Shown here: positions 33,692 through 43,627 of the stretch, piece by piece
Numbering within the stretch: the stretch's first letter is position 1
Layout: each line of letters starts with the position of its first letter
Origin: Gemmatimonadales bacterium
GTDB lineage: Bacteria > Gemmatimonadota > Gemmatimonadetes > Longimicrobiales > Gaopeijiaceae
Direction: 5' to 3'
Assembly (NCBI GenBank): GCA_007692665.1
Contig: REBP01000109.1
Location: 36,135 to 100,134 of the forward strand
Length of the DNA: 64,000 bases
Made by a program: the position numbers and the translations under genes
The notes under the pieces: generated by a model
Told to the model about the DNA's origin: nothing
What the model saw: only the letters and a program-made list of their open reading frames with translations
Database searches by the model: none

Positions 33692-33715
33692 CCCATACCC
33701 TCGAATCTACCGGTC

Positions 33716-33753
33716 CTGACACCGTGGGGGCTCCGCAGTCCCCACGGTGTCAG
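33716..33753 (+). terminator. Strong hairpin between the baeRF gene and wecB
   Basis: Perfect 14-bp inverted repeat CTGACACCGTGGGG / CCCCACGGTGTCAG, 10-nt loop, 25 nt after the upstream stop codon. Confidence 0.7.
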
Positions 33754-33782
33754 CCGTGTTTCCATACTCCGGAGTCACGCGA

Positions 33783-34892
33783 ATGCGAGTGATGCTCGTG
33801 GCCGGCGCTCGGCCGAACTTCATGAAGGTCGCCCCCATCCTGGCCAACCTGGAATCTCGCGGGATCGAGAGCATCCTGGTCCACACGGGGCAGCACTACG
33901 ACGCGGCGCTCTCCGACGCCTTCTTCCGCGACCTGGAGATCAAGGCGCCGGATCACCACCTGGAGGTGGGCTCGGGATCCCACGCCGTCCAGACGGCCCG
34001 GGTCATGGAGGCCTTCGAGCCGGTACTGCTCGACGAGGCGCCGGACTGGGTCGTCGTCGTGGGGGATGTGAATTCGACGCTGGCGACGGCCCTGGTCGCC
34101 TCGAAGCTGAAGGCGGAGGTGGGCTGCCATGTTGCCCACGTCGAGGCCGGCCTCCGGAGCCGGGACTGGCGCATGCCCGAGGAGGTGAACCGGGTGCTCA
34201 CCGACCAGCTGGCGGACCTCCTGCTCACGCCAAGCCGCGACGCCCGCCAGCACCTGGAGGCGGAGGGCATCGACGCGGCCCGGATTCGCTTTGTCGGAAA
34301 CGTCATGATCGACACGCTGCTCCGGCGGCTTCCGGCGGCCCGGGAACGTGCGACCCCCGCCGCCCACGGCCTCCGCGCCCACGAGTACGCCGTGGCCACC
34401 GTACATCGTCCCTCGAACGTGGACGGTGCCGGGGAGCTGCGCACGATCCTGGAGTCGCTCGGTGCCGTGGCCCGGAGTCTCCCGGTCGTTCTGCCCCTGC
34501 ACCCTCGCACCGCGGGGAGCATCGAACGGCACGGCCTGGGGGGACTCCTGGAGCCCCTCACCATCACCCCGCCGCTGGGCTACCTCGACATGCTGGGCCT
34601 CCTGGACCAGGCCCGGGTGGTGCTCACCGATTCCGGTGGCATCCAGGAGGAGACCACGGCCCTCGGCATCCCCTGTGTGACCCTGCGCGAGCAGACGGAG
34701 CGCCCCATCACGGTGACGGAGGGTACGAACCGCCTCGCGCCCTGGCCGCTTTCCGAGGCCGGTGTACTCGAGGCGTTCTCCGCCGCCATGGCCGACGGCG
34801 CGGAGCGGAGGCCTGCCCCCGACGGATGGGACGGAAAGGCGGCCGTGCGCATCGTGGACGCGCTCCTCGACCCGGGGGCCGGGGCCCGCTGA
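33783..34892 (+). CDS. wecB: UDP-N-acetylglucosamine 2-epimerase (non-hydrolysing)
   Basis: MLVAGARPNFMKVAPILANLE, VHTGQHYD, GDVNSTLATALVASKL, VAHVEAGLRSRDWRMPEEVNRVLTDQLADLLLTPS, TDSGGIQEETTALGIPCVTLREQTERPITVTEGTN. Confidence 0.95.
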   Translation: MRVMLVAGARPNFMKVAPILANLESRGIESILVHTGQHYDAALSDAFFRDLEIKAPDHHLEVGSGSHAVQTARVMEAFEPVLLDEAPDWVVVVGDVNSTLATALVASKLKAEVGCHVAHVEAGLRSRDWRMPEEVNRVLTDQLADLLLTPSRDARQHLEAEGIDAARIRFVGNVMIDTLLRRLPAARERATPAAHGLRAHEYAVATVHRPSNVDGAGELRTILESLGAVARSLPVVLPLHPRTAGSIERHGLGGLLEPLTITPPLGYLDMLGLLDQARVVLTDSGGIQEETTALGIPCVTLREQTERPITVTEGTNRLAPWPLSEAGVLEAFSAAMADGAERRPAPDGWDGKAAVRIVDALLDPGAGAR

Positions 34893-34901
34893 TCGGGCGG
34901 C

Positions 34902-35114
34902 CTAGTCGTCGCCGTTCCGCCTGCGCCGCAGGGCCATCATGCCCACGGGGATCGCGATCATGCCCGCGAGGGCCGCGCCGGCTCGGGTCGTGAACAGGCC
35001 CTTCGCGCCCTTCGCTGCCACCAGTGCCTTGGTCCCCTTGATGGGGTGGCGGACCATGAAGGTGGCCTTCGGTGCCTTGGCATATCCAACGAGCTTCGCA
35101 ATTCTGCTCAGCAT
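34902..35114 (-). CDS. Small basic single-TM protein of unknown function (70 aa)
   Basis: MLSRIAKLVGYAKAPKATFMVRHPIKGTKALVAAKGAKGLFTTRAGAALAGMIAIPVGMMALRRRRNGDD; GGAG upstream of ATG; co-directional with the ATP-grasp gene. Confidence 0.6.
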   Translation of the reverse strand: MLSRIAKLVGYAKAPKATFMVRHPIKGTKALVAAKGAKGLFTTRAGAALAGMIAIPVGMMALRRRRNGDD

Positions 35115-35185
35115 GACGGTTCTCCGGTTTCTGGTTCGGGATGTTGTGCTCACCCCTGCCAGATGCAACAACCGTGCAAGCCGTC

Positions 35186-36640
35186 TCAGGTCTCCAGCCG
35201 GTCCAGAAACCACCGGGTGAGGCTGATCCAGACGGAATCCCCTTCCGCCGCGTCCTCCACACCGTGGTCCAGGTTGGGGTTGTCGTTGACCTCGATGACC
35301 ACGACCCCCTCCGGCGTCTCCTTGAGATCCACCCCGTAGAAGCCGCTCCCGATGCAGCGGGCGGCCCGGAGCCCCACGTCGAGCACCTCGGGAGGCGTCT
35401 CGGAGAGCGGAATGGTGCGGAAGCCCCCTTCGATGGGAGCCCTGCCCGCCCGGTGGTTCACGATCTGCCAGTGCTGCTTCGCCATGAGGTACTGGACTGC
35501 GAAGAGAGGGCGACCATCGAGGACCCCCAGGCGCCAGTCAAACGACGTGGGCATGAATTTCTGCGCGATGAGGATATCCGAAGCCTCCATCCAGGCCCGG
35601 GCCAGCGTCGTGAACTCGGCCATCGATCCAACTTTCTTCACGCCGCGCGAGAAGGAGGAGTCGGGGATCTTGAGCACCAGCGGGAAGCCCAGTTCATCCG
35701 CCGCCCGCTGGAAATCCTCCTCCTCCGCGATCATTCGAGTGGGCGGCACCGCGATCCCGTTCGCCGTCATCAACTCGTTCAGGTAGACCTTGTTCGTGCA
35801 GCGGATCATGGAGGCGGGATCATCGATGACAGGCATCCCCTCCTGGACGGCCCGCCGGGCAAAGCGGTAGGTGTGGTTCGAAATCGAGGTGGTTTCGCGG
35901 ATGAAGAGCGCATCGAAATTAGCGAGGCGCGAAAGGTCCCGCCGTCCGATGGGTTCCACCTCCACCCCCAGGCGCGCCGCGATGCGCGCCCAGTGCCTGA
36001 GGGAAGCCATTGACGAGGGCGGAAGCTCCTCCTTCGGGTCGCAGAGCGTCGCGAAAGAGTATCGAGCCGGCGTGCGCTGTCGTGGGTCCCGCCACTGGCG
36101 AGCGGTGAACGTCGCCATGGCGGCCATGAATCGGACCCTCTCCTCCGGCCCGATCTTCATCAGGGGAACGAAGGCGATCTTCTGGATCTTCGCCCACGTT
36201 CCCGGAACGACGGTGACCTCGAGGGCCGGCGCCCGGAACCAGTCGAACAGGAGCCTCCCGAACCGCTCGAACCTGGGATCCGCCGCGTACCCAAAGTGGA
36301 TTCTGAGCGTCCACGGTGCCGGGCTCATCTCGCCGCTCAGCGCGCGGTTCAGCGAAGCCTCGAGTTCGGGGAGGGCATTTTCGTACAGTTTCCGCTCGGA
36401 GAGATCGATCATCGTCTCCACCGAGGGGATGACCCGGTGTCCGCGGGCTTCGGCGAGAAGCGATGCGTAATAGCCCCGGCTCTGGTAGCTGTAGGATCTC
36501 GAGAGGTTGATGACCTTGGGGCGCTGGCCCCGGAAGAGCCCGGGCTGCGCGAGGTATTCGCGGCTCGTGATGACCCTGTGCGGCGTGGAACCGGAGTCGA
36601 GATCGGTGAGCTTGCCCGTGAGAACAACCCAGATGGCCAT
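35186..36640 (-). CDS. RimK-like ATP-grasp ligase with RLAN-type N-terminal domain
   Basis: MAIWVVLTGKLTDLDSG... N-terminal region; ATP-grasp core FPLVLKIPDSSFSRGVKKV...DWRLGVLDGRPLFAVQYLM...GSGFYGVDLKETPEGVVVIEVNDNPNLDHGVED. Confidence 0.88.
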   Translation of the reverse strand: MAIWVVLTGKLTDLDSGSTPHRVITSREYLAQPGLFRGQRPKVINLSRSYSYQSRGYYASLLAEARGHRVIPSVETMIDLSERKLYENALPELEASLNRALSGEMSPAPWTLRIHFGYAADPRFERFGRLLFDWFRAPALEVTVVPGTWAKIQKIAFVPLMKIGPEERVRFMAAMATFTARQWRDPRQRTPARYSFATLCDPKEELPPSSMASLRHWARIAARLGVEVEPIGRRDLSRLANFDALFIRETTSISNHTYRFARRAVQEGMPVIDDPASMIRCTNKVYLNELMTANGIAVPPTRMIAEEEDFQRAADELGFPLVLKIPDSSFSRGVKKVGSMAEFTTLARAWMEASDILIAQKFMPTSFDWRLGVLDGRPLFAVQYLMAKQHWQIVNHRAGRAPIEGGFRTIPLSETPPEVLDVGLRAARCIGSGFYGVDLKETPEGVVVIEVNDNPNLDHGVEDAAEGDSVWISLTRWFLDRLET

Positions 36641-36641
36641 G

Positions 36642-37799
36642 TCAGCGCCCACCATCCAGCAGGACGGCCGCCCGGAGCCCCGGCCGCCCGAACCGGGCCA
36701 TGCGGTCGAACACCGCGTGGGGCACGGGGAGATTTGCGGCGTCGGCCGTGGTCTCGCCTTCCTCGTCGTCGACCCAGGGGTCGTGGATCAGGATGTGGCG
36801 CCCGTCGTCGCCATGGGCGAGCACCCAGTGCGGCACCCGCTTGCCGAACATGTAGTATCCGCTCACGAGGACGATGGCCATGCCCCCCGCCCGGATCACT
36901 CCCCGGATCTCGTTCAGCGTGAAGGCGCGACGCTCCACCGGAATACGGTACGCCTTTGCCCGGACCCGGAAATCCGCCTGCGCGAGTGCCATGACCTGCT
37001 TCTTTTCCACGCTCCGCACCGAGTCCATGAACAGGAGGTCCCCGGTGGATACGAGGATCCTGGGCCTCAGGCCCCGCTCGTGGGCTGCCACCGCCAGGCC
37101 GAACGGTTCGCAGCCCCCCATCCCCGACATCATGAACACGGTCGTGGACTCCCGCCACAGCCGGATCTCGAGCACGGGACCTGCGTCCAGGGCGGGGTTC
37201 TCCCGGGCCAGCGCCATCATCAGGCAGGCGGGGCCACAGGTGAAGTCGGTGGTCTGCTCGAAGTAGGGGGTTCCCGAGGCCAGCGGGGTGTCGCCGCGAA
37301 GCGTCTTCTCGAACCGGAGCGCGGCCGTCCCGTCGGCGTAGTAGTCGGGGGCGCGGCCGATGGGACGGTACCCGCGGCTCTCGTAGAGCGCGATGGCACC
37401 GGGATTGTCCTCCCTCACCTCCAGCCTCAGCAGCATCCGGTCGTGGTCGAACGCGGCTTCTTCCGCGGCCTCGAGCAGGACGCCACCGTACCCCCGGCCC
37501 GCCGCGTCCGGGTGAACGGCGATGGAGTACAGCCGCGCGAGGGCCGTACCCCGGCGAAAGAGGACCATGGCGTACCCCAGGACAACCGCGTCCTCACCGG
37601 CGCCCGGACGGGCCTTGATGACCAGGGTCTCGGCCGTCTCCCGGTCAATGAGCGCCCGGAACGATCGTCGGGAGATCCGGTCCGCCGGGAAGGCGGCCTC
37701 CTCGATGGCCACCAGCCGATCGAGATCTGCTGCCGTGGCGTTCCGAACGGCGTGCCCCCCCGGGGGGCGCGAAAGGGAGCGGGAAGGGAGAACGTTCAC
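36642..37799 (-). CDS. GNAT N-acetyltransferase fused to a C39-like cysteine peptidase
   Basis: GNAT: LYSIAVHPDAAGRGYGGVLLEAAEEAA...LRLEVREDNPGAIALYESRGYRPIGRAPDYYADG; peptidase: PYFEQTTDFTCGPACLMMAL (Cys), VPHWVLAHGDDGRHILIHDPW (His/Asp). Confidence 0.9.
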   Translation of the reverse strand: MNVLPSRSLSRPPGGHAVRNATAADLDRLVAIEEAAFPADRISRRSFRALIDRETAETLVIKARPGAGEDAVVLGYAMVLFRRGTALARLYSIAVHPDAAGRGYGGVLLEAAEEAAFDHDRMLLRLEVREDNPGAIALYESRGYRPIGRAPDYYADGTAALRFEKTLRGDTPLASGTPYFEQTTDFTCGPACLMMALARENPALDAGPVLEIRLWRESTTVFMMSGMGGCEPFGLAVAAHERGLRPRILVSTGDLLFMDSVRSVEKKQVMALAQADFRVRAKAYRIPVERRAFTLNEIRGVIRAGGMAIVLVSGYYMFGKRVPHWVLAHGDDGRHILIHDPWVDDEEGETTADAANLPVPHAVFDRMARFGRPGLRAAVLLDGGR

Positions 37800-37853
37800 G
37801 AGTCAAAGATCGCGGATCCCCGCCGGCTTCACGAGGGCTCTACCCCCCCAGCG

Positions 37854-37882
37854 TTGACAGGGGCCCGCTCTCGCAACAACCT
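37854..37882 (+). promoter_or_regulatory. Candidate tRNA promoter (-35 TTGACA, 17 nt, -10 CAACCT)
   Basis: Exact TTGACA -35 hexamer; weak -10; followed 39 nt later by the tRNA. Confidence 0.4.
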
Positions 37883-37921
37883 TGCGGGGCCCCCGGCTTC
37901 CCTCTTGCCGATGTTCTTCAA

Positions 37922-37995
37922 GGGCCCGTAGCTCAGTTGGTCAGAGCAGGGGACTCATAATCCCACGGTCGCAGGTTCGAGCCCTGCCGGGCCCA
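37922..37995 (+). tRNA. tRNA with CAU anticodon (elongator Met or Ile2)
   Basis: GGGCCCG/CGGGCCC acceptor stem, TAGCTCAGTTGGTCAGAGCA D-arm, GGGGA-CTCATAA-TCCC anticodon arm, GCAGG-TTCGAGC-CCTGC T-arm, discriminator A; CCA not encoded. Confidence 0.93.
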
Positions 37996-42458: not shown

Positions 42459-43627
42459 GACTGATCGCGGAGAGTGTTGGCCGTTGCGGTGGCGACGTCG
42501 GAGTCGCGCGGTCCCCCGGTTTCGGTCCAACACATTCGGGAGCTAGGGCTGGAGGAGGCAGGCGAGAATCCGGATCCCCCTGCGAAAAGGGATGGGGCCG
42601 GCGGAGACCGAAACGCCCGCCGGCCGCATGAGATCCCTGCGCCCAAGCAGTCGCCACTGCAGGTAGTGGTCGGCGTATCTGGCGGAAACCCCCCGGAATC
42701 TTCCGATCCACCGGCGGAATCCCTCGCAGGCAGACCTTGCCGCTGCGGCGTCCCGGTGGAGCGGTGCGCCGGTGATTCCGCAGGCGCCCCACCGACCCGA
42801 GTCGCCCGATGGCGCAAGGCTCCGGTACCGGAAGCGTTTCCTGCGGGCACGAACCGCGGTGGGTCCGAGGGGGCCCTCGTGTGCCCAGACCGTACCCTGG
42901 GCTCCCACGAAGTCCGTGAACCGGCCGGATGCGGCGGAGAGCCAGCTCCGGCGATCCCGCCCAAGCGCACCGAGGTGGAGTCCGCCCGCCTGGCGATCCC
43001 GATCCCTGCCCACCACACCGACGATCCAGAACCTCCCCTTCCTGGCACGGCCATGGGGGGGAGGGTAGAAGCGGGAAGAAATCGTGCCGTGGGAGCCCAT
43101 CCCGGCCGGCTCGACAAACGGCAGGGCGTGCCGGTGAAGAACCGCCGTGGACGCCCACGGTCGAATCGCCCTGCTCGAGACGGTTTCGAGAATTCGGTGA
43201 CGCCACCGAAACCCCGTGGATGGGTGGATTCCCGCAGCCCTCGATCCCGCGCGCACCGTGGCGATCCGATCCACTTCGACCAGATGCGCAGGCCAGCGGG
43301 CGAGCCGCTTGGTCCGCGCAAGCGGGGTGCCCGTCAAGTCGCTGTAGGTGCGACGGCACCCTCGGCATCGATAGCGCTGTCGGCCGGCGAAGCTGCCCCA
43401 CCGGACCACCCCGGTGTGCCCGCAGCGAATGCATCGTGAAGAGAAACCTCCGAATCTAAGCTGACGAATACATTCAAGCAGCAGGTCTCGAGATACGGGC
43501 TCGGAGGTCACGATGCGGGCCTGGATTGGGGGGACGCGAAGCGGTCAGATCAAGCTCCTCCCCGGAAAGGGGCGTCTGAATGGCGGGAACGGCCCGCACT
43601 CTCCCCCAACAGTCTCCGCCACCAGTC
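42459..43627 (-). mobile_element. Old IS1595-like insertion element (about 1.17 kb) with imperfect 22-bp TIRs
   Basis: Left GACTGATCGCGGAGAGTGTTGG (42459-42480) vs right reverse complement GACTGGTGGCGGAGACTGTTGG (43606-43627): 19/22 matches, flanking one transposase-like ORF; no TSD seen. Confidence 0.7.
42543..43511 (-). CDS. IS1595-family transposase-like protein, catalytic residues apparently degenerate
   Basis: Zinc ribbon CIRCGHTGVVRWGSFAGRQRYRCRGCRRTYSDLTGTPLARTKRL and C-terminal FRRWIGRFRGVSARYADHYLQWR match IS1595-type transposases. Confidence 0.75.
   Translation of the reverse strand: MTSEPVSRDLLLECIRQLRFGGFSSRCIRCGHTGVVRWGSFAGRQRYRCRGCRRTYSDLTGTPLARTKRLARWPAHLVEVDRIATVRAGSRAAGIHPSTGFRWRHRILETVSSRAIRPWASTAVLHRHALPFVEPAGMGSHGTISSRFYPPPHGRARKGRFWIVGVVGRDRDRQAGGLHLGALGRDRRSWLSAASGRFTDFVGAQGTVWAHEGPLGPTAVRARRKRFRYRSLAPSGDSGRWGACGITGAPLHRDAAAARSACEGFRRWIGRFRGVSARYADHYLQWRLLGRRDLMRPAGVSVSAGPIPFRRGIRILACLLQP

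Follow-up and report, generated by a model that had tools for sequence, protein, structure and literature searches.

A gene for a fusion of an acetyltransferase with a papain-like peptidase, a gene for a ligase of the RLAN–ATP-grasp type and a gene for a small basic membrane protein follow one another on the minus strand of the window, by which we mean the whole 64,000-nucleotide stretch of DNA that was analysed. The sequence-only reading proposed that the small protein is the peptide that the enzymes ligate, acetylate or trim. Here we ask whether the small gene belongs with the enzyme pair and what such a pair may produce. The features concerned are listed below.

36642..37799, minus strand: GNAT N-acetyltransferase fused to a papain-like DUF3335 ('C39-like') domain; 385 aa, GTG start; PF00583 E 2.6e-15, PF11814 E 2.4e-78
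35186..36640, minus strand: RLAN–RimK-like ATP-grasp ligase; 484 aa; PF14401 E 9e-43, PF08443 E 3.1e-8; fold matches to LysX/ArgX, Ddl and RimK
34902..35114, minus strand: 70-aa basic single-TM protein of a rare Gemmatimonadota family; homologues at unlinked sites in relatives; judged to lie outside the ligase system
33783..34892, plus strand: non-hydrolysing UDP-GlcNAc 2-epimerase (WecB-like), a convergent neighbour given for context only; TIGR00236 279.8 bits, cut-off 210.15
37922..37995, plus strand: tRNA-Met (CAT), a divergent neighbour given for context only; found by ARAGORN; right edge of the stretch that synteny shows to be absent in the same-genus genome G001

The three minus-strand ORFs stand in the order fusion, ligase, 70-aa ORF. 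A single nucleotide separates the stop codon of the fusion from the start codon of the ligase (TGA-c-ATG on the minus strand), exactly as had been read from the letters. A longer in-frame ATG of the ligase exists at 36655, and the start at 36640 agrees with the starts of the relatives in the alignment. The fusion and the ligase are probably a self-contained, translationally coupled unit. The small ORF begins 71 nt past the ligase stop, and no terminator-like site was seen between the two; its earlier description as a same-strand, Lys/Arg-rich, single-TM ORF of 70 aa that ends in RRRRNGDD is accurate throughout.

Domains of the fusion protein and the ligase

Pfam confirms the enzyme identities that had been proposed (GNAT/C39-like and RLAN ATP-grasp), with matches to DUF3335, GNAT, RLAN and RimK. 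In the fusion protein a RimI-like GNAT part (about residues 17-165) is followed by the papain-like DUF3335 part (residues 177-381), which is the Pfam 'Peptidase_C39 like family' PF11814 and scores 262.8 bits against a cut-off of 25. Gln182, Cys188, His324 and Asp340 of the papain-like domain are invariant in 17 relatives, and the window fusion has the make-up of a GNAT–DUF3335 protein with a Cys-His-Asp triad. The nearest solved sequences to the GNAT part include N-terminal acetyltransferases. Membership of the N-acetylglutaminylglutamine synthetase family (TIGR03103) is not indicated, with a score of 21.6 bits against a cut-off of 569.

The ligase scores 146 bits for RLAN (cut-off 25) and 33.9 bits for RimK (cut-off 21). 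K324, R370, D438, E450 and N454, the catalytic and metal-binding residues of the ATP-grasp fold, are invariant in 26 relatives. The enzyme falls outside RimK proper, with 79.8 bits against 143.4 for rimK_fam and 27.9 against 331 for PRK10446. An AlphaFold2 model built on a four-row alignment has a mean pLDDT of 68.8, with a good ATP-grasp core and poor residues 74-190. As the RLAN region is modelled with low confidence, we draw no conclusion about its fold. The best structure matches of the model are LysX/ArgX, the D-Ala-D-Ala ligases (Ddl) and RimK, and the expectation of a peptide-ligase type of chemistry is upheld by this predicted fold. The model supports amino-acid or peptide ligation in general and cannot discriminate between small-molecule and protein substrates. 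A literature search for experimental work on RLAN or DUF3335 returned nothing.

The 70-aa protein and its relation to the ligase

Judged by its sequence, the 70-aa ORF is a real gene and not a chance ORF, because homologues in relatives match it with E values down to 6e-10 and its codon-position GC is coding-like (0.61/0.53/0.87). The homologues share its frame and start (MVGKILTAVGYVKAPKATTMLKHP...), and GGAG precedes the ATG. Of the 70 residues of the protein, 14 are K/R and 2 are D/E, and a single hydrophobic stretch spans about residues 44-62. Members of the family are recognised by Y-x-K/R-A-P-K/R close to the N-terminus, by H-P eight residues past that proline, and by a C-terminal part in which basic residues follow the hydrophobic stretch; nine members all keep Y11, A14, P15, H23, P24 and P56. 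The family is rare: of the 121 genomes in the taxonomic family 7 have a member, and 4 more genomes that have one belong to a sister family. A scan with a 5-row alignment gave three loci, all in Gemmatimonadota, two of them matching contigs found before.

No Pfam family covers the 70-aa protein. Its match to NCBIfam CoaP_CTERM (21.9 bits, cut-off 35) was set aside as a chance match of a hydrophobic stretch plus arginines. We also gave up deriving a function from neighbours, as gene contexts differ everywhere. The only shared neighbour seen for the family is a glyoxalase-like gene, recognized by eye, that adjoins the family gene in two sister-family genomes (L038:8505-8762 and L041:5965-6180).

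Linkage between this family and RLAN ligases was searched for in proteins of 39 relatives, by alignment in 298 genomes of the phylum, in proteins of 121 genomes of the family, with a local HMM over RLAN loci, and by an all-against-all comparison of the short ORFs beside the ligase–peptidase pair. By none of these searches does a 70-aa family gene lie beside another RLAN locus. The HMM matches the window and three control loci and nothing credible in other RLAN loci. No short gene recurs within 1.5 kb of the pair in the all-against-all comparison, which covered loci of architectures I and II described below; each of the few matches obtained links just two loci, and several of the matching ORFs overlap other genes or run opposite to them. 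A conserved precursor gene beside the ligase, the mark of a RiPP or graspetide system, is therefore not found at RLAN loci. It had been stated beforehand that the substrate proposal would be refuted if relatives did not keep the small ORF next to the ligase, and this is the outcome observed.

Where both genes occur in one genome, they lie apart. In G005 the family genes are at C1:343,870 and 1,199,289 and the RLAN gene at 1,402,990; in G105 they are at C1:1,554,005 and 106,785, respectively. In three further genomes the 70-aa gene and the RLAN gene are on separate contigs (G018, C12/C27; G325, C25/C26; G031, C314/C10). No RLAN gene was detected in 5 of the 11 bearers of the 70-aa gene (G015 and G316, and G029, G033 and G035 of the sister family), some of these genomes being fragmentary; in the sister family this applies to three of four bearers. 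Within the family, RLAN is present in 5/7 bearer genomes vs 20/114 others (Fisher p 0.004, kinship ignored), and counted by genus in 4/5 vs 12/35 genera (p 0.14). The association is weak and does not extend to sister families, where both genes mostly occur apart.

That the 70-aa protein is a peptide substrate, ligated at an acidic C-terminus, acetylated or trimmed, would agree with its place on the same strand close behind the ligase, with the lack of a terminator-like site in the spacer, with the C-terminal DD of the window protein and with the weak phyletic co-occurrence with RLAN inside the family. We nevertheless consider this highly improbable. No homologue stands beside any other RLAN locus, the two genes are unlinked where both occur and a good part of the bearers show no RLAN, and the neighbours of the small gene differ each time. 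The family C-terminus is neither conserved nor acidic (AKA, AGR, SRE, ETD, ESS, HHEH, NHH, VEE and GEG), so that the acidic end once proposed as a ligation site of the RimK/LysX type does not hold for the family. The claim that the protein is ligated, acetylated or trimmed is thus left unsupported. If RLAN ligases acted on the membrane-tethered protein as a target or as an amino-group carrier, and its gene usually lay elsewhere and only here adjoined that of the enzyme, the weak co-occurrence (5/7 vs 20/114 genomes) would be accounted for; we see very little chance of this. The 70-aa protein appears to be an independent gene, incidental to the ligase–peptidase pair and very unlikely to be their raw material, and its position next to the ligase does not go beyond chance.

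This adjacency is a feature of the window lineage. Positions 33701-37921 form a 4.2-kb stretch upstream of tRNA-Met that carries the UDP-GlcNAc 2-epimerase, the small ORF, the ligase and the GNAT–peptidase. In the same-genus genome G001 the release-factor-like gene that in the window stands upstream of this stretch is followed after ~80 bp by tRNA-Met and then by a rhomboid gene, with none of the genes of the 4.2-kb stretch at that place; the distance from the release-factor-like gene to tRNA-Met is about 65 bp in G015 and 155 bp in G016. An insertion signature was looked for and dismissed, since the stretch lacks convincing direct repeats at its flanks and has the same GC (0.68) as its surroundings, with no shift. 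The stretch is either present or absent as a block, or it was built by successive events. Elsewhere in the window (42543-43511, minus strand), a 322-aa ORF has an N-terminal C-x2-C ... C-x2-C zinc-ribbon-like stretch and looks by eye like an IS1595-type transposase, with no Pfam match.

Partners of the ligase–peptidase pair in relatives

In 2009, Iyer et al. reportedly described ligases of the RLAN–ATP-grasp type whose partners are papain-like and GNAT proteins. This coupling, which the sequence-only reading had named as established, is indeed tight among the genomes examined here. In 28 loci including that of Azospirillum, these being the loci where both genes could be read, the gene immediately before the RLAN ligase is a papain-like one, at a distance of -4 to +40 nt, and such a neighbour is what marks an RLAN–ATP-grasp ligase system. 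The Azospirillum pair is about 45-47% identical to the window proteins. RLAN itself is present in 25 of the 121 genomes of the taxonomic family.

Three architectures were distinguished. Architecture I consists of GNAT–DUF3335 and the ligase, and is seen in the window, L043, L047, L102, L105 and the Azospirillum locus L128. Architecture II comprises a papain-like gene (Pfam C39_2), the ligase and GCS2, usually with an N-formylglutamate-amidohydrolase-like enzyme (FGase). In architecture III a papain-like gene precedes the ligase, and GCS2 is either fused to the ligase or comes directly after it. No homologue of GCS2 or FGase is present in the examined flanks of the six architecture I loci, and the GNAT fusion and GCS2 occur together in no locus read. 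Across the whole window genome, GCS2 gives no more than a marginal match. All six GNAT–DUF3335 genes found in the taxonomic family are in RLAN-bearing genomes. The ligase tree largely tracks the partner set, with one clade for architecture III, two changes for II and three for I; the seven architecture changes in all compare with a mean of 17 after shuffling.

Two loci depart from this order. At L118:3519-5501 (G322) the ligase comes before GNAT-DUF3335 and seemingly lacks most of the RLAN domain; it is possibly a decaying copy. A plasmid record of Pseudomonas aeruginosa has a ligase without a papain-like neighbour.

RLAN-clade ATP-grasp ligases also occur on IMG/VR phage contigs, at 5977-6912 in L132 (and L133), 5932-6903 in L131 and 6001-7161 in L134, with 36-40% overall identity to the window ligase. 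In L132 a gap of 2 nt separates the ligase gene from the ORF ahead of it, which is terminase-like by eye and has no Pfam match, and an SU10-type portal gene comes shortly after the ligase. No homologue of the peptidase, GNAT or GCS2 was found beside the ligases of L131-L134. These phage ligases, one of them shortly before a portal gene, may be worth following in their own right.

Possible chemistry and comparison with known systems

GCS2 and FGase relatives are small-molecule enzymes. Because the partners at sister loci are of this type and no precursor gene recurs, the product is suggested to be a small peptide-like molecule. We give about even credence to a reading in which the ligase–peptidase unit builds or caps a small non-ribosomal peptide-like metabolite and the 70-aa protein is independent of it. 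The fold and conserved residues of the ATP-grasp ligase suggest that it would spend ATP on turning the carboxylate of an amino acid or short peptide into an activated acyl phosphate, which it would then join to an amine. With its intact triad, the papain-like domain may cleave or transfer an amide bond of the product or of a precursor by a Cys-His-Asp mechanism. The fused RimI-like GNAT would cap an amine of the product with acetyl-CoA. In the loci read the partner sets are exclusive, and the GNAT would apparently take the place that the GCS2 ligase and the FGase-like enzyme hold in sister lineages.

The main rival is that the ligase adds amino acids to a terminus or side chain of an unlinked protein, that the papain-like domain takes them off or trims them back, and that the GNAT acetylates the same target. 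LysX/ArgX and RimK are the nearest solved folds of the ligase, and the GNAT is similar to RimI and to acetyltransferases of protein N-termini; a ligase and a peptidase make a sensible writer–eraser pair, and the stand-alone phage ligases, including the one just before a portal gene, would fit. Nearest folds that act on protein C-termini and lone phage ligases of the RLAN clade fit protein modification about as well. The sister loci with GCS2 and the FGase-like enzyme point instead to small molecules, a recurring target gene is missing from the neighbourhoods, and the ligase scores far below the RimK model cut-offs; we rate modification of a protein in trans as less likely than a small-molecule product. 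It is very improbable that the pair is non-enzymatic or decaying, a recent lineage-specific gain without function in the host. The absence of the 4.2-kb stretch at the same position in a same-genus genome and the patchy distribution (25/121 genomes) would suit such a gain, but the open frames, the active sites and the coupled start are kept at 44-48% identity to relatives, and GC and codon-position use agree with the host.

For a widespread orphan ligase–peptidase pair, these results remove a substrate candidate that was attractive but poorly supported. A more testable clue takes its place: the partner of the core is either an acetyltransferase or GCS2 (usually together with the FGase-like enzyme), and no locus read combines the two. 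These exclusive partner sets narrow the chemistry worth assaying.

LysX acts on LysW and RimK acts on S6, in both cases at the protein C-terminus. LysX/ArgX with the carrier LysW and RimK with S6 are the nearest ATP-grasp folds to the window ligase, whereas identity to them is ~20% and the window ligase has an extra RLAN domain. Unlike LysW in the LysX–LysW system, the 70-aa neighbour in the window is a membrane protein of basic character and lacks a conserved acidic end. N-acetylglutaminylglutamine synthetase likewise joins a GNAT to ATP-grasp chemistry; there both are in one protein, while the window GNAT is fused to the peptidase. Graspetide RiPP clusters also have an ATP-grasp ligase with a short ORF nearby (PMC8939145), but loci of the window type have no recurring precursor and their papain-like domain does not belong to an ABC transporter. 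Members of PF11814 are often fused to GNAT and are close to Guanylate_cyc_2 (PMC10318531); these GNAT–DUF3335 papain-like proteins have the same domain order and catalytic triad as the window fusion, and no difference was seen. In the RLAN systems of Iyer et al. 2009 (cited in PMC8939145 and PMC7824862), the same RLAN and RimK-like ATP-grasp ligase is coupled with a papain-like–GNAT fusion. Nothing essential differs in the window, where a rare micro-protein follows apparently by chance, and the window pair is most likely a further case of this known kind of orphan amidoligase–peptidase pair.
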